Assembly (NCBI GenBank): GCA_947651395.1
Contig: CANSYW010000002.1
Coordinates: 62,001-126,000 of the forward strand
Length of the DNA stretch: 64,000 bases
Origin: an uncultured Pseudoflavonifractor sp.
GTDB lineage: Bacteria; Bacillota; Clostridia; Oscillospirales; Oscillospiraceae
Direction: 5' to 3'
This document shows positions 2,921 to 35,437 of the stretch, one piece after another (positions within the stretch are counted from its first letter, which is position 1; each line of letters starts with the position of its first letter). The translations under genes and the position numbers were made by a program. The notes beneath the pieces are model-generated. The model made no database searches. It was given only the letters and a program-made list of their open reading frames with translations, and was not told where the DNA came from.

Positions 2921-4141
2921 TCAATCGTATCTCAGGGCGTCGATGGGGTTGAGTTTGGCCGCCTTGTTGGCGGGCAGATAGCCGAAGAGGATGCCGATGG
3001 CCACCGAGACCCCGAAGGCCACGGCGATCCCCTGAAGGGTGGGCATGGCCACGAATCCGTCATTGCCGGTGCCCAGCACCAGGGCGATGACATTGGTGAT
3101 CGCATTGGCCATGATGATGCCCAGCACGATGCCGATGCCGCCGCCGATGGCGGAGGTGGTGCCCGCCTCGATGATGAACTGGCTGCGGATATCCCGGCCC
3201 TTGGCCCCCAGAGATTTCCGGATGCCGATCTCCCGGGTGCGCTCGGTGACGGACACCAGCATGATGTTCATGATGCCGATGCCGCCCACCAGCAGGGAGA
3301 TGGCGGCGATGAGGGTGAGGATGGCCATGAGCAGGTTTACCATGGAGTCCATGGCGTCCATCATCTCCGCCGAGGTCAAGACTACGTAGTAGTCGGTGTC
3401 GTGGTAGGCCTTGAACAGGCGGTTTTCCACGATGCCCTTGGCCGCGGCGGCGGTGGAGCGGTCGGTGGAGGTGAACATATAAAGGACGTACCACTGGGAA
3501 CCGCCCAGCCGGTTGGCCTGGGTATAGGGGATATAGATGCAGTCGTCACTGCTGCCCTCTGAGCTGTCTCCGCTTTGGTCCAACACCCCCACCACGGTAA
3601 AGGGAGCTCCGGAGACAGTGAGGGTCTTGCCCAGGGCGTCCCCGCCGAAAGCCTCCTGCTCCAGGTAGGAGCCGATGACGCACACCGCCATCTCCCGCTC
3701 CACATCCACGTAGGACAGGAAGCGGCCTTTGCCCAGGGAGGAGCCGGTCATGATGGTGTTCTTGTTGACATTGTAGAAGGTCTCGCCCACGCCGTAGACG
3801 CTGGTGCGCTTAAACTCGTCGCTGCCCTGGCGGACGGTGCCCTGGATGCTGTTATAGGGGGTGACCCCGGAGAGGTACTGGGGGTACTTCTCCACCAGGG
3901 CGTACATATCGTCGGCCTTCACGTCCAAAGAGGAGCCGGTGAGATAGACCTGGGCCTGGACCAGGTTGGAGCCCATCTCCTCGAACTGGTCGTTCATGTA
4001 GTTCTGCATGCCGTTGCCCAGGGAGGTGATGATGATGACCGCCGCCACGCCGATGATGATGCCCAGCATGGTCAGCAGGGAGCGCATCTTGCTGGTCATC
4101 AGGCTCTTCACCGCCAGGCGGAAGGATTGTCCGAAGTTCAT
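2921..4141 (-). CDS. MacB/FtsX-type ABC transporter permease
   Basis: MLGIIIGVAAVIIITSLGNG N-terminus and C-terminal GGIGIMNIMLVSVTERTREIGIRKSLGA. Confidence 0.93.
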   Translation of the reverse strand: MNFGQSFRLAVKSLMTSKMRSLLTMLGIIIGVAAVIIITSLGNGMQNYMNDQFEEMGSNLVQAQVYLTGSSLDVKADDMYALVEKYPQYLSGVTPYNSIQGTVRQGSDEFKRTSVYGVGETFYNVNKNTIMTGSSLGKGRFLSYVDVEREMAVCVIGSYLEQEAFGGDALGKTLTVSGAPFTVVGVLDQSGDSSEGSSDDCIYIPYTQANRLGGSQWYVLYMFTSTDRSTAAAAKGIVENRLFKAYHDTDYYVVLTSAEMMDAMDSMVNLLMAILTLIAAISLLVGGIGIMNIMLVSVTERTREIGIRKSLGAKGRDIRSQFIIEAGTTSAIGGGIGIVLGIIMANAITNVIALVLGTGNDGFVAMPTLQGIAVAFGVSVAIGILFGYLPANKAAKLNPIDALRYD

Positions 4142-4917: not shown

Positions 4918-6621
4918 TTACATCCCCATCATGGCGCTCATAAAGCTGGAGGCGGCGTTGGGGATAAAGACCACATCCCCCTCCTCCAATCCGGAGAGGA
5001 CCTCAATGTACTCATCGTTGTTCCGGCCCAGCTCCACCGGGCGCTGTTCCAGCTTGGTAAAGTCCGCCAGGCCGCCGTTCTCGTCCAGGGCGCCCTCTCC
5101 GGCCACCAGGACGTAGGGGATCTCGGAGCGCTGGATGGCGTCCACGGGGACGCAGAGGACGCTGCCTACCTCCTCCACGATGATGTTGGCCGAGACGCTC
5201 ATGCCGGGGAGAAGGCCCTCAGCGGCCAGGTCCTGGCCGTTGCCGTCCACTGCCACGGTGACGGGGTAGGAGGTGTTGCCGTTCTGGGTGGTGCCGTTGA
5301 TGTTCACCTTTTCCACCACGCCGGTAAACTCCTGTCCGTCCAGAGCGTCGGCAGTGAAGGTGACCCTCTGGCCCGCCTGGACCCGGACCACGTCCATCTC
5401 GGAGACGTTGATGTCAAAGGTGAGGCGGGACATATCATAAATGACCGCCAGGAAGGCGTTGGCTCCAGTGGAGGAGGCGGTGGAGGGGTCGTAGTTGTCC
5501 CCCTCCTTATAATTTTTCTCGATGACGGTGCCGGTGATGGGGGAGGTGATGGTGTAATCCTCCAGGCTGTCCTCGGCGCGCTGGAGGCTGTCCTGGGCGT
5601 TGCGCAGGGCCAGTTGGGCGTTGCGGAGCTGAATGGCGGCGGCGTCGATCTGATCCTGCATCTGGGTCTCCTTGAATTCGCCCACGACCTGGCCGTCGGC
5701 GACCCGGTCGCCCTCGTGGAGCGTCAGGGTCTCCAGCTCCCCGGAATACTTGGCAATGAGCTGCTTGCTCTCGCCGTAGGCGAACTGGCCGGAGGAGGCG
5801 CAGGTCACATCTCCCACGGCGGCGGAGCCCATGGAGCTGTCGGACAGGGCGCCGGGATTCTGGACGGTGATGGTCACATTGCGCACCAGGGCGCCGCCGG
5901 CGCCTACGGCGTCGGTGGCGGATATCTCGGTAATGGCGCCGTAGAGGATCTCGGCGGTGCCGGAGACGGTGACCGAGGCCGGCTGGCCCACATAGAACCC
6001 GGCGGCGCTCACCGAGTGGAAGGGCACCTCCAGCTTCATGTTGTCCCGATCCAGGATGTCGGCGACGGGGGTGCCCGCGCCCACGGTGTCGCCGGGATCC
6101 ACATAGACCTTGGTGACCACGCCGTTGGCGTTGGCCTTTACCTGCCGGTCTTCGGCGTTGTCATTGCGGGTGCGGACGAGGCTGTCGTAGTTGAGCTGGG
6201 CGGACTGCACCGAGAGCTGGGCCTGCTCCACGCCGGTGCGGGCCTGCTTGATGGCGTTCTCCACGTCGGAGGCGTCGATGGTGAACAGCACGTCGTCCTT
6301 CTCCACCGTGTCCCCCTCCTCAAAGGGGGCGGTGAGGATCTCCCCCTTGATGAGGGTGGTGGCCTTGTAGGAGTCGTTGGACTTGATGGTGCCCGGGCCG
6401 GTGACGGCCACGGTCAGGTCCTGCACCTGGGCCACGGCAGGCAGGTAGTTGCCTGCCGCACTCTGGATCCCGCCGGACATGCACCGGGACAGAACGAAGA
6501 GAATGACGGCCACGATCACCACAAGGATGACGAGCCGTTTGATCCACTTTTTCTTCTTTTTGGGAACCTGGAGCTTGGGAGCCTCCTTGACGGGAGTCTG
6601 GACATTGCTTTGGTCGGCCAT
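4918..6621 (-). CDS. HlyD/RND-type efflux periplasmic adaptor
   Basis: N-terminal TM, lipoyl-like and coiled-coil regions; operon with MacB-type ABC genes. Confidence 0.88.
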   Translation of the reverse strand: MADQSNVQTPVKEAPKLQVPKKKKKWIKRLVILVVIVAVILFVLSRCMSGGIQSAAGNYLPAVAQVQDLTVAVTGPGTIKSNDSYKATTLIKGEILTAPFEEGDTVEKDDVLFTIDASDVENAIKQARTGVEQAQLSVQSAQLNYDSLVRTRNDNAEDRQVKANANGVVTKVYVDPGDTVGAGTPVADILDRDNMKLEVPFHSVSAAGFYVGQPASVTVSGTAEILYGAITEISATDAVGAGGALVRNVTITVQNPGALSDSSMGSAAVGDVTCASSGQFAYGESKQLIAKYSGELETLTLHEGDRVADGQVVGEFKETQMQDQIDAAAIQLRNAQLALRNAQDSLQRAEDSLEDYTITSPITGTVIEKNYKEGDNYDPSTASSTGANAFLAVIYDMSRLTFDINVSEMDVVRVQAGQRVTFTADALDGQEFTGVVEKVNINGTTQNGNTSYPVTVAVDGNGQDLAAEGLLPGMSVSANIIVEEVGSVLCVPVDAIQRSEIPYVLVAGEGALDENGGLADFTKLEQRPVELGRNNDEYIEVLSGLEEGDVVFIPNAASSFMSAMMGM

Positions 6622-6907
6622 ATGTATGTTCTCCTTCCGGATCCATTCTTGGAGCTTGAATCAAGTTTGCAGTATAGCATGGTGAAAAGAAAAAAGTGTA
6701 AACACAAAGTTAAAATTCATTTAAGATGTGAAGACATTGCCGGGGCCGGGCGGAAAAAGAGGCCCGTTTTTCTCCGTGGGGCCCAGTATACGCCGGGTGA
6801 GAGGGAAAAGCAAATCCAAAGTTCTCCCCCGTGGGGAAATTTTCTCGCGGATGGGTATAAACGGTGTCGGAGGGGGCAACAATAGGCCCCGGAGGTGTTA
6901 AAACCAA

Positions 6908-7935: not shown

Positions 7936-8463
7936 ATGCGCAAACTCAGCACCAGGGATCTGACCCTGGCGGCCATGGTGGCCGCCATCTACGCCGTGAT
8001 GGGCTATTTCGGCAACGTCTTCGGGCTCACCTTCGGGCCCATCCAGTTCCGCTTTGCCGAAGCCCTCACCGTGCTCCCCTTCCTGTTCCCGGCCACCGTG
8101 CCGGGGCTCTTTGCAGGCTGCGTCATTGTCAACCTGCTCTCCCCCTATGGGCCCCTGGATATCGTGGTGGGCTCAGCGGCCACTCTCATCGCCGCGGTGT
8201 GGACAAGCAGGCTGAAAAACAAGTGGCTGGCCCCGCTGCCCCCCGTCCTGTGCAACACGGTGCTGGTGGGCTTCACCATCGGCTGGGCGGAAGCGGGTGG
8301 CTTTACCGCCAAGCTTCCCATGGCCTGGCTGGTCAACGGCCTGAGTGTGGGGATCGGGGAATTGGGTGTGTGTTATGTGCTGGGCATGCTTCTGCTGGAG
8401 GCATTGCCCAGGAACGGCTATTTCCGCGCCATGATTCCGGAAAAACGGTTGTCGGTGCGATAA
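7936..8463 (+). CDS. queT: QueT family queuosine-precursor transporter
   Basis: RDLTLAAMVAAIYAVMGYFGNVFGLTFGPIQFRFAEALTVLPFLFP. Confidence 0.85.
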   Translation: MRKLSTRDLTLAAMVAAIYAVMGYFGNVFGLTFGPIQFRFAEALTVLPFLFPATVPGLFAGCVIVNLLSPYGPLDIVVGSAATLIAAVWTSRLKNKWLAPLPPVLCNTVLVGFTIGWAEAGGFTAKLPMAWLVNGLSVGIGELGVCYVLGMLLLEALPRNGYFRAMIPEKRLSVR

Positions 8464-8491
8464 AGATCTGTTTTACAAAGGAGGATATCCC

Positions 8492-9361
8492 ATGAAAGTC
8501 CGCAAAGCAGTCATTCCCGCCGCCGGGCTGGGGACCCGGATGCTGCCCGCCACCAAGACGGTGCCCAAGGAGATGCTCCCCATGGTGGATAAGCCGGTGC
8601 TGCAATACATCATTGAGGAGGCAGTGGAAGCCGGCATTGAGGATATCCTTATCGTCACCAACCGGGCCAAGTCCGCCATGGACGATTACTTCGACTACTA
8701 CCCCGAGCTGGAGCACCGGCTGGAGGCGGCGGGGAAGGAGAAGGAGCTGGAGGAGGTCAAGCGGGCTGCCGACCTGGCCAATATCTTCTATGTCCGGCAG
8801 AAGGAGACCAAGGGGCTGGGACACGCCATCTGGCGTGCCAGGCGTTTTGTGGGGGATGCGCCTTTCGCCGTATTGCTGGGGGACGACATCATGCGCTCCC
8901 CCAAACCGGTGATCGGCCAGCTCATCGACGCCGCTGAGGCGTATGACGCCTCGGTGATCGGTGTGCAGCAGGTCTCCGACGAGGTGGTGTCCAAATACGG
9001 CGTGATCAAGGCCCGGCCTCTGGCCGATCGGCTCTTTGCCGTTGAAGATATGCAGGAGAAGCCCACCCTGGCCGAGAAGTTTTCCAACTACGCCGTTCTG
9101 GGCCGCTATGTGCTGCGGCCCGACGTCTTTGATATTCTGGAGAACCAGACTCCGGGCTACGGTGGGGAGATCCAGCTCACCGACGGGCTGAAAAAGCTCT
9201 GTCCCGAAAATAAGCTCCTGGCGGTGGAGTTTGAGGGCCGGCGTTACGATACCGGAAACCTGAAGGGATTTTTGGAGGCCACCATCGATTACGCTCTGGA
9301 TCATCCGGAGACCGGGGCGTGGCTGAAGGAGTTCATCAGGGAAAAGGCCCGGGGCCTGTAA
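8492..9361 (+). CDS. galU: UTP--glucose-1-phosphate uridylyltransferase
   Basis: KAVIPAAGLGTRMLPATKTVPKEMLPMVDKPVLQYIIEEAVEAGIEDILIVT. Confidence 0.95.
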   Translation: MKVRKAVIPAAGLGTRMLPATKTVPKEMLPMVDKPVLQYIIEEAVEAGIEDILIVTNRAKSAMDDYFDYYPELEHRLEAAGKEKELEEVKRAADLANIFYVRQKETKGLGHAIWRARRFVGDAPFAVLLGDDIMRSPKPVIGQLIDAAEAYDASVIGVQQVSDEVVSKYGVIKARPLADRLFAVEDMQEKPTLAEKFSNYAVLGRYVLRPDVFDILENQTPGYGGEIQLTDGLKKLCPENKLLAVEFEGRRYDTGNLKGFLEATIDYALDHPETGAWLKEFIREKARGL

Positions 9362-9886: not shown

Positions 9887-10363
9887 ATGCTCAATCGCAT
9901 CGTCCTCATGGGACGACTGGTGGCCGATCCTGAGCTGCGCACCACGCCTGCCGGGGTCACAGTAGCCACCTTCCGCGTCGCCTGCGACCGGGATTTCCGC
10001 AACAAGCAGACCGGCGAGCGGGAGACCGACTTCATCAATGTGGTGGTCTGGCGTCAGACCGCTGAGTTCGTCAGCCGCTACTTCGCCAAGGGCCGTATGG
10101 CCGTTGTGGAGGGCCGGCTTCAGATCCGCAACTATACCGACCGGGACGGCAACAAGCGCACCGCCGCCGAGGTGGTGGCCGACAGCGTCTACTTTGGGGA
10201 TTCTTCCCGTCGGGAAGGCGAGGGCGGCTTTGCCCCCTCCGCTTACGGCGCTCCCTCGGGGAGCTTCGGCGCCCCCCAGCAGCCGGCCGGCGGCTATGCC
10301 GCCCCCGCCGGCGACGACCAGTTTGCCGAGCTGGCCGACCCGGACGGCGACCTGCCGTTTTAA
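9887..10363 (+). CDS. ssb: single-stranded DNA-binding protein
   Basis: MLNRIVLMGRLVADPELRTTPAGVTVATFRVACDRDF and acidic C-terminal tail DPDGDLPF. Confidence 0.96.
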   Translation: MLNRIVLMGRLVADPELRTTPAGVTVATFRVACDRDFRNKQTGERETDFINVVVWRQTAEFVSRYFAKGRMAVVEGRLQIRNYTDRDGNKRTAAEVVADSVYFGDSSRREGEGGFAPSAYGAPSGSFGAPQQPAGGYAAPAGDDQFAELADPDGDLPF

Positions 10364-26734: not shown

Positions 26735-27544
26735 TTGACCGGAAATAAACACCCGCTTCTACACATACTGACCTTGAACATGGTCGGGAGGGAAGTGGGT
26801 GTTTTGCGTTATCGTATCCAGCGCGTTTTCGGGAGGCTGAGCGCCTTTTCGCGCGCCTTGCTCTTGCTTTTGGCGGCGGCGGGACTGCTGCTTACAGGCG
26901 GGAGGGTCACACGGGCTCTGCCTGCCTTCGCACCCCAAAGTCAGCCGCTCATCGCCCTCACCTTTGACGACGGTCCCCGCCGCTCCACCACCACCCAACT
27001 ATTGGACGGCCTGGCTCAGCGTGGGGTCCCTGCCACCTTTTTTCTCATCGGTGAGCTGGTTCCCGACAACGAGGATATCGTGGCCCGGATGGAGGCGGAG
27101 GGTCATCAGGTGGGGATCCACACTTGGGATCATGTCTCTCTTACCGGGCTCAACGCCAGGGATTTTTACTCTCAGGTGGAGCGGACCGGCACTCTTTTGT
27201 ACCAGATCCTGGGGCATGGAGGGTTTGCTCTTCGGCCTCCCTACGGCATGGTGGACAACGGGGTAAAAAAACGGGCGGGAGCGCCCATCATCCTCTGGTC
27301 GGTGGATCCCACCGACTGGGACGATAAGAATACCCAGCGTATTGTGGAGCAGGTGGTCTCCCAGGCACAGGACGGGGATATTATTCTTCTCCATGACATT
27401 TATCCCACCTCTGTGGAGGCCGCACTTCAGATCGTGGACGCCCTTCACGCCAAAGGCTTTCTCTTTGTCACAGTAGAGGAACTGGCCCGGCAGCGCCAGG
27501 TGCCCCTGGAGCCCGGGGAGGTCTACTGTGATTTTCGTCCGTAA
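26735..27544 (+). CDS. polysaccharide deacetylase (NodB-like)
   Basis: PLIALTFDDGPRRSTTTQLLDGLAQRGVPATFFLIGE and GHQVGIHTWDH; start uncertain (ATG 26735 or downstream). Confidence 0.92.
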   Translation: MTGNKHPLLHILTLNMVGREVGVLRYRIQRVFGRLSAFSRALLLLLAAAGLLLTGGRVTRALPAFAPQSQPLIALTFDDGPRRSTTTQLLDGLAQRGVPATFFLIGELVPDNEDIVARMEAEGHQVGIHTWDHVSLTGLNARDFYSQVERTGTLLYQILGHGGFALRPPYGMVDNGVKKRAGAPIILWSVDPTDWDDKNTQRIVEQVVSQAQDGDIILLHDIYPTSVEAALQIVDALHAKGFLFVTVEELARQRQVPLEPGEVYCDFRP

Positions 27545-27625
27545 TTACAAAATAGTCACAGTGAAAAGTGAAAAATGTAGTATTTCCAAGGGACGAGGGG
27601 CCACAGTAGGCGAGGAAAAGGGCCT

Positions 27626-27649
27626 GTTTTCCCTTTAGTTTTCCCTTTA
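27626..27649 (+). repeat. candidate att direct repeat, left
   Basis: gttttccctttagttttcccttta, identical to 35198-35221. Confidence 0.7.
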
Positions 27650-27835
27650 CAGCTTTTGGGGAGGGTGTTTGCGGGCCTCTTTTGATGTCCGAATCGGAAA
27701 CCGGCGACGGCCACCAGGCGGAGCTTGCCCGGGCCGCGGCGGCCCGCCCGCTCGGTGGGGATCTTCTTGGCGCCGGTCACCGGGCCCAGCTGGGGAGCTG
27801 GCCGGGGTGATCTCCGGGCCCACAACATAGAAAAA

Positions 27836-27893: not shown

Positions 27894-29063
27894 TCAGAGG
27901 CCCAGGACGCCGGTTATATACTGTTCCATATGCTGGGCGCTGTCCCGCTTCATCTGCTCCGTGACGTGGCCGTAAACGTCCAGGGTGAAGGCGGCGGTGG
28001 CGTGGCCCAGGTTGCCCTGTATGGTCTTGATGTCGTCCCCGGCCCGGAGGGCGGCCACGGCGTAAGAGTGGCGGAGATCGTGGAAGCGGGCGTCGGGGCG
28101 GCCTATGGAGGCGGCCATCCGCTTGAACTGGCTGTAGGCGGTGTAGGGTGGGATATAGTGGCCTATGGCGTCGGTAAAGACAAAGCCGCCGTCCTCCCAC
28201 AGCTCCCCGGCCTTCAAGCGCTGCTTGGCCTGCTCTGTCCGGTGGCGCTTGAGCATGGACATGATCCAGGGGGCGGGGGCTACGGTGCGCCCCTTTCCGC
28301 TCTTGGGAGACTGGAGAGTGTATTCCTCTGCACCAGGGAGGCGCTGGAGCTGCTTATTGACGGTGATGACGCCGCTTTTGAAGTCCACGGCGTCCCAGGT
28401 GAGGCCCACGATCTCACTTTTCCGCATACCGGTAAAGAGGGCGAGGGTGAACAAGGCCTCCAGGCGGTGGCCCTTGATGGCCTGTAAAAAAGCCTTTGTC
28501 TCCGCTTCGTCGAGGGGGCGCAGCTCGGTCTTCTCGATGCGGGGGAGGGTACAGGCGTCGGCGGGGTTAAAGCGGAGATAGCCCAGCTTCACGGCCTGCT
28601 GAAGGGCGTGGTGAAGCACGGCGTGAACCACGTGGACGCTGCGGGGACTGAGGCCCAGAGAAAGGCCGTTATAGAGGCGCTGGATGGTGTGGGCACTGAG
28701 AGCGTCCAGCTTCACCGCCCCAAGGGCGGGACGGAGGTACAGGTCTATACGCTGCTGATAGGAGGCCGCCGTCTTCTTCTTGACGCCGCCCAGGTAGTCA
28801 CGGGCCCAGATGTCCAGCCACTCGCCCACGGTGAGCTTGCAGGGGGCTTTATAGGTGCCCTCGTCCAGGGCGGCCACGGCGGCGGTGAGCTTCCGGGCGA
28901 CTTCGGCTTGGGTTTGGCCGGTGAAGCTGCGCTGGATCTGTCTGCCGGTGCCGGGATCCCGGCCCACGGTGACACGGGCCTCCCAATAGGTGTATGGCTT
29001 TCCCTTCCGGGTGACGGTCTTCTTGCGGATGGTGCCGGTGCCGGAGGCCGCTCTTCTGGGCAT
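27894..29063 (-). CDS. int: site-specific tyrosine recombinase / integrase
   Basis: TGMRKSEIVGLTWDAVDF ... FHDLRHSYAVAALRAGDDIKTIQGNLGHATAAFTLDVYGHV (R-H-R-H-Y); start at MPRRAASGTGTIRKKTV. Confidence 0.95.
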   Translation of the reverse strand: MPRRAASGTGTIRKKTVTRKGKPYTYWEARVTVGRDPGTGRQIQRSFTGQTQAEVARKLTAAVAALDEGTYKAPCKLTVGEWLDIWARDYLGGVKKKTAASYQQRIDLYLRPALGAVKLDALSAHTIQRLYNGLSLGLSPRSVHVVHAVLHHALQQAVKLGYLRFNPADACTLPRIEKTELRPLDEAETKAFLQAIKGHRLEALFTLALFTGMRKSEIVGLTWDAVDFKSGVITVNKQLQRLPGAEEYTLQSPKSGKGRTVAPAPWIMSMLKRHRTEQAKQRLKAGELWEDGGFVFTDAIGHYIPPYTAYSQFKRMAASIGRPDARFHDLRHSYAVAALRAGDDIKTIQGNLGHATAAFTLDVYGHVTEQMKRDSAQHMEQYITGVLGL

Positions 29064-29201
29064 GGAAATCCTTCCTTTCCTCTTGCCCTCCCGGCGCTCC
29101 TGTGGTACAATAAGAGCGCAAAGGGGCCTTGGTTTTAGCTGACTGTGGTCTTTTGCATCTACGCCGCTCCCGGAGGTCGCAACTCCGGGGGCGGTTTTTT
29201 G

Positions 29202-29230
29202 TTGCCATTTGTCGGGCGCTGTGGTATGAT
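29202..29230 (+). promoter_or_regulatory. predicted toxin mRNA promoter
   Basis: TTGCCA (29202-29207) - 17 nt - TATGAT (29225-29230). Confidence 0.65.
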
Positions 29231-29325
29231 GGCCGTGGCGCTGCCCGTATACGGTAGGCGGTTGGCCCTCTTCATCTTGGAGGGGGCAGCTTCTTGGCCT
29301 CCTCCACTGAGAGGAGGCGGTGCCC

Positions 29326-29409
29326 ATGCTTACATACTCAGAGCTGTTCCAGTTCTGCCTTGTGGTCATCGGCATTATCGGCTTGTTTTTTCAGGCAAAA
29401 AAGAAGTAA
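29326..29409 (+). CDS. putative holin-like type I toxin peptide (27 aa, not in supplied ORF list)
   Basis: MLTYSELFQFCLVVIGIIGLFFQAKKK; GGAGG SD at 29313-29317; one TM and Lys tail like TxpA/BsrG/holin-like toxin peptides. Confidence 0.72.
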   Translation: MLTYSELFQFCLVVIGIIGLFFQAKKK

Positions 29410-29677: not shown

Positions 29678-30172
29678 TCAGCCTGCGCCGGTACCAGAGG
29701 AAGGGGATGAGCTTCCCGCCGCTTTTTTCCCGGCCAGGAGCTGGGCCCGGTAAGCCTCCACCTCCCGCTCGATGGCGGCCAGATCATCGGGAGGGGCGGG
29801 GGTGGCCGCCGCCTGCTGGGCGGCGAGCTCAGACGCCATTTTCTCCAGCAGCTCCCAGCCGTCTTCATTGAGACGGGAGAGCATGGAGACAAAGCGGCGC
29901 TTGAAGCTGTCCGGCTGGCCCGCAAGGGCACGGTCAACAAAGGCGGTGATCTCCTGATCTCTGGAGGTAGGGGAGAACATTTCCCCCTCCCCGGTGCGTA
30001 GCCACGATTCACTGACGCCAAATTCCCGGCAGATGGCGAAGATGGTCTGGTTAGACGTATTCCTCCCGCCCTCGATGAGGGCTATTGTATTTTGTTTCAT
30101 ACTGATACGGGAACCAAATTCCGCTTGCGTAAGGCCCAGGGCTTTCCGCAGTTTTTTTATACGCTCATTCAA
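29678..30172 (-). CDS. XRE-family (cI-like) repressor
   Basis: RIKKLRKALGLTQAEFGSRISMKQNTIALIEGGRNTSNQTIFAICREFGVSESWLRTGEGEMF. Confidence 0.92.
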   Translation of the reverse strand: MNERIKKLRKALGLTQAEFGSRISMKQNTIALIEGGRNTSNQTIFAICREFGVSESWLRTGEGEMFSPTSRDQEITAFVDRALAGQPDSFKRRFVSMLSRLNEDGWELLEKMASELAAQQAAATPAPPDDLAAIEREVEAYRAQLLAGKKAAGSSSPSSGTGAG

Positions 30173-30255: not shown

Positions 30256-30317
30256 TTGACAATATAGATTTTACAATGTATGATTATCCTGTAATCTATG
30301 CGCTACATTGTAAAATC
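30256..30317 (+). promoter_or_regulatory. rightward element promoter with paired operator-like palindromes
   Basis: TTGACA (30256-30261) - 17 - TATGAT (30279-30284); perfect 14-bp inverted repeat gattttacaatgta (30267-30280) / tacattgtaaaatc (30304-30317). Confidence 0.72.
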
Positions 30318-30342
30318 ATCCCGAGCGGGAGGAGGTGAGCAC

Positions 30343-30489
30343 ATGACCGAGAAGGAAAAGACGATGGCCAAGCGGCTGGAGGAGTCCATGCCCAAGCTGA
30401 CCGGGGAGGCTATGGCAGCTATGGCCGCCTATGGCGAGGGTATGGCGGCGGGGCTGGAGCTGGCCCAAAAGGCCCAGGCGGGACAGTGA
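30343..30489 (+). CDS. small element protein of unknown function
   Basis: MTEKEKTMAKRLEESMPKLTGEAMAAMAAYGEGMAAGLELAQKAQAGQ; GGAGG RBS upstream; first gene after the promoter. Confidence 0.6.
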   Translation: MTEKEKTMAKRLEESMPKLTGEAMAAMAAYGEGMAAGLELAQKAQAGQ

Positions 30490-30646
30490 GGGGCCCGGAG
30501 AAGGGCGGCGGGGCATTTATCCCGCCCCGTCTGCTGGAGGGGCTGACGTTCCATGAAGGGCCGGTGAAATTTACCGGGCCGGTGTCCGAATTGGACACCA
30601 GGACCGGGCGGGAAGGCCCGCTCGACGGGGAAGGAGGTGAAAGGGG

Positions 30647-30946
30647 ATGGACTTTGACTTGATCTCCGCTCTGTTCAGCGCCGGGATGGGCTTCGTGGCC
30701 CCGGAGCTGCTGGAGTTGGGCAAGGAGACCGGCGCAAAGCAGAAGGCGGATCAGGCAGCGCTTGACGCGCTGAATGCGCTGAAGATATCTGATACCGACC
30801 AAGAGCGGCTTGTGGATATCTTCGTACATGCGGGCTTTGAGGCCCAGCGGTGCGGGTTTATCAATGGCTTCCGGCTGGGCGTCCGCCTGATGGCGGAGGT
30901 ATACGGAAACGACAAAAAGAAGGAGGAAACGGCATGTTCTATGTAA
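30647..30946 (+). CDS. small element protein of unknown function
   Basis: MDFDLISALFSAGMGFVAPELLELGKETGAKQKADQ...; good RBS aaggaggtgaaagg. Confidence 0.65.
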   Translation: MDFDLISALFSAGMGFVAPELLELGKETGAKQKADQAALDALNALKISDTDQERLVDIFVHAGFEAQRCGFINGFRLGVRLMAEVYGNDKKKEETACSM

Positions 30947-31164
30947 AGTACAAGGGCGAGGAGCTTCAGATCAGGAAGGACACGGTATATAACAAGTGCC
31001 CCCGGTGCGGGAAGGAGGTCAAGGTGGACTTAGACGACCTGGCCGCCGGGATGGAGCGGGGAGCAAGCCTGCTGAAGAGCGGCGTCTACTGCGACGTTTG
31101 CGGGGAGCTGGCAAAGGCAGAGCTGGCGGAGGGACGGCCAATGACGGAGGAGGAAATGCCGTGA
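30934..31164 (+). CDS. small zinc-ribbon-like protein
   Basis: MFYVKYKGEELQIRKDTVYNKCPRCGKEVKVDLDDLAAGMERGASLLKSGVYCDVCGEL. Confidence 0.65.
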   Translation: MFYVKYKGEELQIRKDTVYNKCPRCGKEVKVDLDDLAAGMERGASLLKSGVYCDVCGELAKAELAEGRPMTEEEMP

Positions 31165-31379
31165 GCGGAAAGAAAGCCGTTGAGGTGCCACCGTGGGAAA
31201 AGCTGGCCTTGAACGTCCCGGAGGCGGCGGCCCTGCTGGGGCTGTCAGAGGCGGCGGTCTATAACCTGGTACATACCGAGGGCTTCCCGGCTATTCAGCC
31301 GGGGGGCGGGAAGTGGATCATCAACCGGGCACGGCTTCAGGACTGGCTGGACAAGCAGCTTCTGGGGGCGGAGATATGA
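31161..31379 (+). CDS. excisionase-like helix-turn-helix DNA-binding protein
   Basis: LNVPEAAALLGLSEAAVYNLVHTEGFPAIQPGGGKWIINRARLQDWLDKQLLG; GTG start overlapping upstream gene. Confidence 0.8.
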   Translation: MSGKKAVEVPPWEKLALNVPEAAALLGLSEAAVYNLVHTEGFPAIQPGGGKWIINRARLQDWLDKQLLGAEI

Positions 31380-31804
31380 GGGACGGGGTGATCTTCGCCC
31401 TGTGTCTGGGGGCGGCGATATGCGCGGACAGCTTGCCGGTGTCCCTGCTGCTGGCTGTGGCGGCGCTGCTGCTATCCTTCCGGGCGGACAGGCCCAGGAA
31501 GGCCAAAAAGAGACCCGCCGAGCGGGCGGGGAAAGGAGCAAGGGCAATGAGCTATTATCGTACATGTCCCCATTGCGGGGCGCATCTGGATCCCGGCGAG
31601 CTGTGCGACTGCCGAGCCGTCAGCGACAAAGGAGCGCTACGGATCGGGCGTGCCCCTGGCGGGTACTGCCGGGATGTCAGAGGGCAAAAAGAGAGCCGCC
31701 CCGGTGCTACGAACACCAGAGGCGGCGAGGTCGGAAAAGCAACTGCCAAGCGGCTTATTCCTGCCTCTATTTTAGGCTATGCCTGGGGAGGTTGTCAAGG
31801 GTGA
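31376..31804 (+). CDS. small TM plus zinc-ribbon protein, possibly translated as two products (internal start ATG 31546)
   Basis: MRDGVIFALCLGAAICADSLPVSLLLAVAALLLSF then MSYYRTCPHCGAHLDPGELCDC. Confidence 0.5.
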   Translation: MRDGVIFALCLGAAICADSLPVSLLLAVAALLLSFRADRPRKAKKRPAERAGKGARAMSYYRTCPHCGAHLDPGELCDCRAVSDKGALRIGRAPGGYCRDVRGQKESRPGATNTRGGEVGKATAKRLIPASILGYAWGGCQG

Positions 31805-32286
31805 ATTATCAAGGGATCGTTGACCGCCTTCGTCAGAATGAAGATCATTTCATCCGTGTGGGGGACAGCTGGCCCGGCCACGATGGGCCCGCCGTGTCAC
31901 TCTATCCGAATTTGGCCGCCGAGCTGGTGGCGCGGGAATGGCAGATCACCACGCCGTCAAATGCCGCCGGAGTCTCACGGGAGAAAATGACAAGGGTGAT
32001 CGAGGACGGGGCAGAGCTGGAGGAAGAACGGTTGGAAGCGATTGCCCGGCGCATGGAGATCACTATGGGGTATCTCAAGGCGCCTATGCTGGCCTATGTT
32101 GACCCAACCACCAAGAAGGGACGGCGCAAGCGGGCGGTTTTGAAACGGCTGCTTCAGCGGTCAGACACCTTTCAGGGGATCCACACATTCAATGCGCAGG
32201 ACACCCTTGCGGAACTAAAGCGGGGGCAGTGCGTTACCTATGCGGCGTGGAGCTGGGCCTGCTGTTCCACTCAATGGGAAGCGTAG
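31801..32286 (+). CDS. helix-turn-helix-like protein of unknown function
   Basis: VNYQGIVDRLRQNEDHFIRVGDSW...TTPSNAAGVSREKMTRVIEDGAELEEERLEAIARRMEITMGYLKAP; GTG start overlapping upstream stop. Confidence 0.6.
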   Translation: MNYQGIVDRLRQNEDHFIRVGDSWPGHDGPAVSLYPNLAAELVAREWQITTPSNAAGVSREKMTRVIEDGAELEEERLEAIARRMEITMGYLKAPMLAYVDPTTKKGRRKRAVLKRLLQRSDTFQGIHTFNAQDTLAELKRGQCVTYAAWSWACCSTQWEA

Positions 32287-32298
32287 GGGGTGGGAAAG

Positions 32299-32928
32299 AT
32301 GAGCAGCAACACGCCGGAATATAGCCGGGCCTATTATCAGGCCCACAGGGAAAAGACCGTCGAGCGGGTGAGGGCCTGGAGGCAGGCAAACCCGGAGAAG
32401 GTGCGGGAGGCGGCCCGGAAGAGCGTCAGGAAGTGGAGGGACGCCCACCCGGAGGAGGCAGCAAAAAAAGACGCGGCGAACTACCGGCGGCGGGCCATGG
32501 ACAAGGTGAAGCGGATCCTGGAGGCGAACTTCACCGGGGGCGGCTACCTCCTCACCCTGGACTTTACCGGGCTGAGTTTCCGGCCCGCCCGCTCGGTGAT
32601 GCGGTCAGAGGCAGAGCGGATGATCCGGAGGCTGAGAGCTGACGACAGGGGAGCGGGGGAGGAACTGCGGTACATATACGCCGCCGATCTGGCGGAGGGG
32701 CCGGTGGTGCGCCTGCTGGTCAATGAGGGCGGGCTGGACTTCGCCCAGGGCCCGGAGGGGGCCCTTGACCGGGTGGCGCGGCTGTGGCAGGTCGGCGGGG
32801 TGCATATCGTCCATGCGGACAGGGCCAACGGCTGGGGCGGGCTGCTGGAGCTTCTGACGCCGGGCACGGCGGCGGGTGGCCGGAGCTGGACACGCTCCCG
32901 CAATATGCGGGAACCGATGGAAGACTGA
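32299..32928 (+). CDS. degenerate HUH Rep-like protein (predicted catalytically inactive) with basic N-terminal extension
   Basis: Aligns with the downstream Rep: LRYIYAADLAEGPVVRLLVN versus LRYIYVTEDKHGEGRLHHHLILN; SWTRSRNMREP versus MWTPSRNLKKP. Confidence 0.7.
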   Translation: MSSNTPEYSRAYYQAHREKTVERVRAWRQANPEKVREAARKSVRKWRDAHPEEAAKKDAANYRRRAMDKVKRILEANFTGGGYLLTLDFTGLSFRPARSVMRSEAERMIRRLRADDRGAGEELRYIYAADLAEGPVVRLLVNEGGLDFAQGPEGALDRVARLWQVGGVHIVHADRANGWGGLLELLTPGTAAGGRSWTRSRNMREPMED

Positions 32929-32992
32929 AGAGCTGGGGCGGGGACAACACCCGCCCCGGCTTTGCCGTATCTATACGAGAGGACGGGGAAGC

Positions 32993-33727
32993 GTGGCAAA
33001 ACGGAAGAAGACTATCATATCGGGGCCTATTGTGGAAGCGGTGATCTACACGCCACCGGAGCCCAGGGACGGCCCCAGGGCGCGGGCGGAGAAGTCCAGA
33101 ATGACCACGGCGGCCCAGAAGGCGATCAATGACAACTGCGCCAGGCGGAGGCTGTCACGGCTGATCTCCACAAACTTCACATGGCGGGATCTCGTTGCCA
33201 CGCTGACATACCGGGACGGAAGCTTACCGGCCAACCGCAAGGAGGCGCGGAAGCTGATGCGGGCCTTCCTGCGGAAGCTGAGAGAGGTCAGGCGGCGGCG
33301 GGGCGTCGATCTCAGATATATCTACGTCACAGAGGACAAGCACGGGGAAGGGCGCCTCCACCATCATCTGATCCTCAACGCCACGGGGGAGGACGTGGAA
33401 GAGCTGCGGAGCCTGTGGAGCTATGGGGACATTGTAGACGTCCAGTATGTAGGCAAGCACGACTTTGACGGCTGGGCGGTCTATCTGAGCAAGGAGGCGG
33501 GAGACCGGCCCAACGGGGCCCAGATGTGGACGCCTTCCCGGAACCTGAAGAAGCCCATTGTGAAATATGAGTATGTGCCCAGCGACACCACCTTGACGCC
33601 TCCACCCGGAGCCCTTCCCCTTGACCGGAAGGAGGGAGGAGGCTTATACGGGAGCTTCTGCTATATCCGTTACCGTCTGCGGGATAACGGGGGCGGCGGA
33701 GGCTTCCCGATGTACCTTGACAACTGA
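32993..33727 (+). CDS. rolling-circle replication initiator-like protein (HUH endonuclease, ORF2/G2P-like)
   Basis: HUH motif GRLHHHLILN, YLSKEA Tyr-x-x-Lys motif, LRYIYVTE; GTG start. Confidence 0.8.
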   Translation: MAKRKKTIISGPIVEAVIYTPPEPRDGPRARAEKSRMTTAAQKAINDNCARRRLSRLISTNFTWRDLVATLTYRDGSLPANRKEARKLMRAFLRKLREVRRRRGVDLRYIYVTEDKHGEGRLHHHLILNATGEDVEELRSLWSYGDIVDVQYVGKHDFDGWAVYLSKEAGDRPNGAQMWTPSRNLKKPIVKYEYVPSDTTLTPPPGALPLDRKEGGGLYGSFCYIRYRLRDNGGGGGFPMYLDN

Positions 33728-33869: not shown

Positions 33870-34127
33870 GTGGTCAACATGCCGTTGATGATCCAGACAA
33901 AGGCCGACGAGACCGGGAAGGAGTGGCTGAGATGCCCGTTTTGCAGGCGGAAACTGCTACGGCTGGAAGAGGACAGCGAGGCCCGAGGCGTCGGGCTGTG
34001 GTGCGTGCGCTGTAAATGCGAGCTGGAAATGGACGTTACGCCCGGTGAGAATGGGCATGAAGTCACAGTCAAACGGGCCTTGCGGAGGGTGGAAAGGGAG
34101 GCTTTTTGTTCGGATTTTGGGGGGTGA
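33870..34127 (+). CDS. cysteine-rich KTR-like zinc-ribbon protein
   Basis: KEWLRCPFCRRKLLRLEEDSEARGVGLWCVRCKCELEMDV, similar to KTR-type small proteins common on clostridial mobile elements. Confidence 0.72.
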   Translation: MVNMPLMIQTKADETGKEWLRCPFCRRKLLRLEEDSEARGVGLWCVRCKCELEMDVTPGENGHEVTVKRALRRVEREAFCSDFGG

Positions 34128-34435: not shown

Positions 34436-35142
34436 CGAAAAGTTTAGACTTTGGGCCGGGAGACCGCATAGCCCCCTTCGTGAGAGATTTTTTCCCCAAA
34501 TGGCGGAAAGGGCGAGGGTGTCTGATTTGGACACCGGCGACAGCGACCGGGCGGAGCTTACCCAGGCCGCAGCGGCCCGCCCGCTCGGTGGTGATCTCCT
34601 TGGCGTCGGTCACCGGCCCGCCGCCTGGATCCTGACGACGGCCACCGGCCCAGCTGGGGAGCTGGCCGGGGTGATCCCCGCGTCCAGGGCGGCGCTGAAG
34701 GCGGCAGGGAGGCCGACCATCGACCGGGGCCCTGTGGATGGCCCTACGGCCTCGCCCACGCCCTTCCGGGGGAGGAGCAGGCCCACCAAGCACCGGGAGC
34801 ACGTAGACACCAACCGGCCCGCCACGGCCACGCTGGCCGCCCACTGGGCCCAGCTGACGCCGCCACCGGCGACGGTCACCGGGCGGAGCTTACCCAGGCC
34901 GCAGCGGCCCGCCCGCTCGGTGGTGATCTCCTTGGCGTCGGTCACCGGCCCGCCGCCTGGATCCTGACGACGGCCACCGGCCCAGCTGGGGAGCTGGCCG
35001 GGGTGATCCCCGCGTCCAGGGCGGCGCTGAAGGCGGCAGGGAGGCCCGGAGGGGCAGACCCATCCCACCGGGTCAAAAAAGTTTAGACTTTGGGCCGGGA
35101 GACCGCATAGCCCCCTTCGTGAGAGATTTTTTCCCCATATGG
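34436..35142. repeat. GC-rich terminal repeat region with two nested direct repeats
   Basis: gtttagactttgggccgggagaccgcatagcccccttcgtgagagattttttcccca at ~34441 and ~35081; ~165-bp block starting cgggcggagcttacccaggccgc at ~34549 and ~34880, apparently identical. Confidence 0.85.
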
Positions 35143-35197: not shown

Positions 35198-35221
35198 GTT
35201 TTCCCTTTAGTTTTCCCTTTA
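35198..35221 (+). repeat. candidate att direct repeat, right
   Basis: gttttccctttagttttcccttta, identical to 27626-27649. Confidence 0.7.
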
Positions 35222-35437
35222 GCGCTTCAAAAAAAGCCCGCAGAAAAGTGGAAGGAATTAGAAGGAAATGCGGGAAAACGTTGGGAAATAAGGAAAAAGG
35301 TTAAAGACCGGGAAGAACTGGGCGAATTACAAAATAATAACAGTTGCGCCAAGAACATTGACGATGCCGCCCGAAACGTGTAAAATAAGGGGTACCCTTG
35401 TTGAGCAAAGGTAGAAATCCGAAACGGAGGGAACGCC

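Follow-up and report, generated by a model that had tools for sequence, protein, structure and literature searches.

A Separate Gene for a Catalytically Dead HUH Rep Beside a Live Rep in Small Integrative Elements of Oscillospiraceae

The Rep pair within its integrative element

The window, by which we mean the whole 64,000-nucleotide stretch of Pseudoflavonifractor DNA that was analyzed, holds two separate Rep genes in tandem, with the gene for a catalytically dead protein upstream of the gene for a live one. Both genes belong to a 7.8-kb integrative element, a small mobile element of gut bacteria, that also carries an integrase, an XRE regulator, small early ORFs, and a zinc ribbon. The features are as follows.

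27543–27562, unstranded: attL, AATTACAAAATAGTCACAGT, a 20-nt direct repeat with attR
27627–27649, plus strand: sub-terminal repeat TTTTCCCTTTAGTTTTCCCTTTA, left end, a possible integrase arm site
27894–29375, minus strand: tyrosine integrase, start uncertain (Pfam Phage_integrase, 6e-22)
29678–30172, minus strand: XRE/HTH_3 repressor-like regulator (Pfam HTH_3, 4e-11)
30298–32286, plus strand: small early ORFs (ORF list)
30647–30946, plus strand: DUF6809-like ORF among the early ORFs (below the Pfam cut-off)
around 31170–31379, plus strand: excisionase-like HTH ORF among the early ORFs (by eye)
32299–32928, plus strand: catalytically dead HUH Rep paralog, 209 aa, ATG start (PHROG 3584, AlphaFold2 model, residue table)
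32934–32958, plus strand: strong hairpin between the dead and live genes, core GGGGCGGG-GACAACA-CCCGCCCC (ssDNA fold z = −5.9)
32993–33727, plus strand: live HUH Rep (ORF2/G2P family), 244 aa, GTG start (PF23343, PHROG 3584)
33870–34127, plus strand: small zinc-ribbon ORF (Cys_rich_KTR, 3e-4, below the cut-off)
35199–35221, plus strand: sub-terminal repeat TTTTCCCTTTAGTTTTCCCTTTA, right end, a possible integrase arm site
35325–35344, unstranded: attR, AATTACAAAATAATAACAGT, a 20-nt direct repeat with attL

The element is integrative, with a tyrosine integrase, att direct repeats, and an empty site. The two att copies are identical at 18 of 20 nt, and in a congener (G117) that has the empty site both flanks join at one copy of the att sequence. 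A different repeat, TTTTCCCTTTA, was first taken for the att core and then discarded, since the empty site puts att at AATTACAAAATA. The ORF list of the element, some of whose small ORFs were scanned against PHROGs, showed no capsid, terminase, or tail genes. The zinc-ribbon ORF follows the live Rep in most relatives, as judged from profile matches in other elements. Near the right end lies a 183-bp direct repeat, 98% identical between its copies (34532–34714 and 34864–35046), and a related 101-bp stretch occurs near the left end (27686–27786).

A second element with the same gene order resides in the same genome (L005, on contig C3). It is bounded by a 24-nt repeat (L005 positions 3039–3062 and 10139–10162), the left copy of which, by eye, ends a tRNA-Leu gene. 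The live Reps of the two elements are 53% identical and the dead Reps 32% (BLASTP). Despite their different att sites, the two elements have in common a sub-terminal repeat, TTTTCCCTTTMGTTTTCCCTTTR, at both ends of each. It takes the form of a tandem TTTTCCCTTT, at 27627–27649 and 35199–35221 in the window and at 3120–3142 and 10011–10033 in L005, and possibly marks integrase arm sites.

Shared descent, lost catalytic residues, and predicted fold

The first-pass annotation had taken the two adjacent ORFs for diverged paralogs, at coordinates that proved right, and similarity searches agree. BLASTP aligns the proteins at 26% identity (E = 6e-8), and both match PHROG 3584, "replication initiation protein" (1e-13 for the dead Rep, 8e-58 for the live Rep). 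Of the two window proteins, only the live one matches Pfam REP_ORF2-G2P (PF23343, E = 4e-13); both are homologs of the initiators in these families. Judged by sequence, the live protein is an intact HUH Rep of the ORF2/G2P type with predicted nicking activity, and the dead protein belongs to the HUH Rep superfamily by descent. The motifs originally quoted for the downstream protein, GRLHHHLILN and YLSK, are correct, and its catalytic residues are H123-H124-H125, Y164, and K167. The upstream protein had been described as lacking both metal histidines and the nucleophile; the columns aligned to H123-H124-H125 and Y164 indeed contain V136-V137-R138 and L185. With neither metal histidine and no nucleophilic tyrosine, this protein falls outside the definition of an HUH endonuclease.

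The dead Rep of the window begins with a basic repeat of about 15 residues (residues 9–60; window 32323–32480), followed by the HUH-fold domain. This N-terminal extension had been presented as a feature of the protein; it is real in the window copy, but it is element-specific, amounting to about one unit in the dead Rep of the second element and to none in other dead Reps. The repeat is also present in a protein from another genome (locus L070, about 6430–6900), where it precedes an apparent XRE-type HTH, and it has weak PHROG matches to HNH endonucleases. Possibly it is a movable DNA-binding module.

The same loss recurs among relatives. In a residue table of 16 dead Reps (two from L068, with the frameshifted L096 copy set aside), the first metal histidine is kept in none, the nucleophilic tyrosine in none, and the motif glutamate in one, and the second metal position is histidine in 1, arginine in 11, and tyrosine in 4. 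Structural residues are retained (W and L in 16/16, F and S in 15/16), and the live Reps of the paired elements keep all catalytic residues (16/16). Three groups can be told apart. In group A the dead gene is upstream of its live partner, with a hydrophobic residue (Thr in L005) at the first metal position and Arg at the second. The other two groups are found downstream: B (L085, L086) reads A-H-Y, and C (L100, L101, L123) reads V-L-H or K-V-Y. Since the second metal position is Arg or Tyr in 15 of 16 dead Reps, one might ask whether the changed site performs some other chemistry. The three different replacement patterns speak against such a noncanonical enzyme, as does the lack of any conserved alternative nucleophile among the residues seen, and we consider it highly improbable.

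A branch with 99/93 support splits the 16 dead Reps from a side of 52 live-only sequences. Relations among the dead groups, possibly including a single origin, are unsure owing to long branches. Distances among dead Reps are correlated with those among live Reps (Mantel r = 0.70, p = 1e-4; reduced set, r = 0.57, p = 0.007). Pfam, PHROGs, and NCBIfam all lack a family dedicated to the dead branch; among 13 dead Reps, 9 match PHROG 3584 and 2 match Pfam PF23343.

Structure prediction bears on whether the upstream protein retains the HUH fold, a point on which the first reading would have stood or fallen. From an alignment of dead Reps alone (13 rows, zero live Reps), AlphaFold2 gave a dead Rep model with pLDDT 83 and pTM 0.65; the live Rep model has pLDDT 85 and pTM 0.79. 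The order of strands and helices is identical in the two models (dead: E82-88, H98-115, E125-130, E136-142, H148-162, E168-173, H179-186; live: E67-73, H82-102, E109-113, E123-128, H132-141, E145-152, H157-166). An N-terminal beta-hairpin and extra C-terminal strands forming a sheet are present in the live model and missing from the dead one; these missing parts may carry DNA binding or dimerization. The window dead Rep model also has basic N-terminal helices. A BFVD search with the dead model returned 42 matches with E ≤ 0.001, of which the named top ones are ORF2/G2P or phage replication proteins; the best are ORF2/G2P Reps (E = 4e-7 and weaker, TM about 0.5). The PDB fold search yielded zero matches at E ≤ 0.001 for dead and live models alike, so this library, unlike the viral BFVD, does not discriminate, because an undoubted live Rep scores equally weakly in it; the PDB sequence search gave no relevant match. 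The dead Rep is thus predicted, from its model and the BFVD matches, to adopt the HUH fold.

Distribution of the pair and selection on the dead gene

Live-Rep relatives were gathered from family genomes, genome contigs (49 loci), and viral contigs (80 loci); the search for dead-Rep relatives covered 397 genomes of the order. With each source counted once, live/dead pairs occur at 16 loci, mostly in Oscillospiraceae (the window, L005, L068, L085, L086, L089, L090, L093 to L098, L100, L101, and L123), or at 13 after merging dead genes at least 93% identical (L090/L095, L085/L086, L101/L123). The records name Pseudoflavonifractor, Flavonifractor, Oscillibacter, Agathobaculum, Intestinibacillus, and uncultured Oscillospiraceae/Clostridiales as hosts. 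The pairing is conserved in homologous elements, where the dead gene may lie upstream of, overlap, or lie downstream of the live gene. Among the best matches of a collection seeded with Rep profiles, with doubtful matches followed up, no lone dead Rep without a live Rep nearby was found. The window dead Rep had no match in a phage or a plasmid collection, and that of An901 (L097) had none in the phage collection. Locus L068 has a triple array of two tandem dead Reps followed by one live Rep (8263–9262). On two viral contigs, a tandem Rep pair has both HUH motifs intact (L167, 7474–8750; L168, 2952–4228), possibly a picture of the stage that preceded the loss of catalysis.

Of the 21 sampled loci of the Rep clade in which an integrase adjoins the Rep module, 16 have a dead Rep, compared with none of 22 other Rep loci (Fisher p = 8e-8, for a post hoc grouping uncorrected for relatedness). 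The 22 are loci with no integrase match in the fetched flank, some flanks being short; two of them (L102, L103) adjoin, by eye, phage structural or packaging genes. The counts cover the clade proper; more distant Reps (L124–L130, L132, L133), all single and one of them (L124) with an integrase, were set aside. An overlooked dead Rep was sought in integrase elements L087, L088, L091, L092, and L099, and nothing convincing turned up. In 5 of the 21 integrase elements, then, a dead Rep could not be detected, and not every such element needs one. In three of these (L087, L091, L092), a sigma-factor-like ORF, identified by eye, adjoins the live Rep.

These counts bear on the idea that the dead Rep is an obligate partner, one half of an asymmetric initiator whose live subunit does the cutting and whose dead subunit only binds the DNA. 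Co-inheritance and correlated divergence of the two proteins would fit such a complex, as would the elements in which the two genes overlap or the live one follows the dead one directly, and the Arg found at the second metal site in 11 of 16 dead Reps could bind phosphate there. However, the five integrase elements and the other Rep loci manage without a dead Rep, and the N- and C-terminal parts of the live Rep are absent from the dead protein, which makes an obligate partnership unlikely in our judgment. Similarly doubtful is the proposal of a dedicated class of stand-alone dead HUH initiators that carry Arg at the metal site and serve mixed live/dead initiators as a subunit, either required or regulatory; such a class would have arisen once in small Oscillospirales integrative elements and been co-inherited with the live Rep since.

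The alternative that the dead gene is a decaying duplicate without function can be weighed against its rates of change. Its dN/dS is 0.24 for An44/An386a and for An44/An85, 0.29 for An82/An507, 0.33 for An901/An100, and 0.11 for both L085/L086 and L101/L123, with other comparisons at 0.20–0.43; the two highest listed values, 0.62 and 0.64, belong to window/L005 and the two L068 copies. Live genes range from 0.05 to 0.30. Because most dead-gene comparisons fall at 0.11–0.43, the dead genes are mostly under purifying selection and are less constrained than the live genes. Decay would account for the faster evolution of the dead gene and for the frameshift in one MAG copy (SUG478, L096), but frames are open in nearly all copies, the gene is retained across strongly diverged elements, and it is catalytic, not structural, residues that are consistently lost. 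We give decay very little credence. Conservation and dN/dS together reject a one-off pseudogene, and the proposal that an intact dead Rep is retained beside a live one, rather than persisting as a random remnant, holds in many related elements.

Possible roles of the dead Rep

Because related elements in many species keep the live and dead genes together, the dead copy appears to have a job, probably the control of the live Rep. In most of the pairs that were folded, the DNA just before the live gene forms a strong hairpin. The intergenic DNA of the window is conserved in the second element, and hairpins precede the live gene in the window and in L005 (z = −3.0), L095 (−4.2), L097 (−2.5), L085 (−3.0), and L100 (−4.9), all as ssDNA folds; no strong hairpin occurs there in L098 (−1.1) or in L087 (−0.3), which has no dead Rep. 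A nested hairpin is recognizable in the alignment of L090, L093, L095, L096, L097, and L068, with paired changes in L068 noted by eye. No one hairpin loop common to all elements was found. These hairpins are candidate origins or regulatory structures. GGGCCTATTATCAGGCCC, a palindrome within the stretch of the dead gene that encodes the N-terminus, was also considered as an origin and dropped, being broken in the second copy.

Hairpins between or just before the genes, along with the basic N-terminal helices of the window dead Rep, could indicate a transcriptional autoregulator, that is, a repressor or antiterminator that binds DNA at the promoter or the hairpin preceding the live rep gene. The hairpins could equally be origins, however; L098 has no strong one there, and the elements already possess an XRE repressor. 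This role seems to us improbable, marginally more so than the obligate partnership.

The reading we favor, with about even confidence, is that the dead Rep is a pseudoenzyme, an old initiator duplicate that kept the HUH scaffold, lost nicking, and now limits rolling-circle initiation as a brake. Common descent, a predicted HUH fold, catalytic loss, conservation, purifying selection, and linkage to an intact Rep in an integrative element are its computed components. After excision, the live Rep would nick the origin, perhaps the hairpin just upstream of its own gene. The dead Rep, sharing target DNA or a dimer surface with the live Rep, would bind the same DNA or the live Rep itself without cutting, and initiation would thereby be limited. 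It could thus serve as a trans-acting copy-number brake, and perhaps also as a barrier to a second related element. A brake is favored by the inhibition of replication that comparable second or spent Rep forms exert (pIGRK RepR′, pT181 RepC/RepC*) and by the existence of related elements that lack the dead copy. Against this reading weigh the five integrase elements with no detected dead Rep, the N- and C-terminal parts missing from the dead proteins, the variable position of the dead gene, and its dN/dS, which exceeds that of live Reps.

Several known systems resemble this arrangement in part. In filamentous phages, gpX, an in-frame product of the Rep gene (gpII), limits replication; gpX is a C-terminal fragment from the same gene as gpII, whereas the dead Rep is a paralog. 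The Klebsiella plasmid pIGRK likewise has two related Rep proteins from one replicon, RepR being needed for initiation and RepR′ acting as a negative regulator, but RepR′ is made in frame from the same gene as an N-terminally truncated form, whereas the dead Rep is encoded separately, as a strongly diverged paralog whose catalytic residues have been replaced (PMC6854812). In pT181, a Rep dimer with one spent subunit (RepC/RepC*) cannot re-initiate, a prerequisite for copy control; the proposed brake would be functionally similar, but RepC* arises by covalent attachment of an oligonucleotide and belongs to the Rep_trans family, whereas the dead Rep has its own gene and comes from another Rep family (PMC5703833, PMC4797284). 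Polyomavirus and papillomavirus initiators retain the HUH fold for origin recognition and have lost the catalytic motifs, but their dead HUH domain is helicase-fused and the sole initiator, whereas the dead Rep is encoded on its own, next to a live HUH Rep (PMC6668415). In the open-licence literature, we found no description of a separate, conserved gene for a dead Rep paralog. The first-pass remark that no described system of this form was known stands, in that literature, for a dead Rep encoded as its own gene and must be narrowed elsewhere, since antagonistic Rep pairs from one gene (pIGRK) and dead HUH origin-binding domains were already known.

Elements that replicate by rolling circle must prevent their initiator from firing again, and the described solutions that we found modify or truncate the same protein. 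If our reading is correct, a separate dead initiator maintained by selection would be a genetically encoded brake, or a subunit, across many mobile elements. It would also be a bacterial counterpart of the dead HUH origin-binding domains found in small DNA tumor viruses, and would explain a set of proteins that are mostly unnamed in current family libraries.
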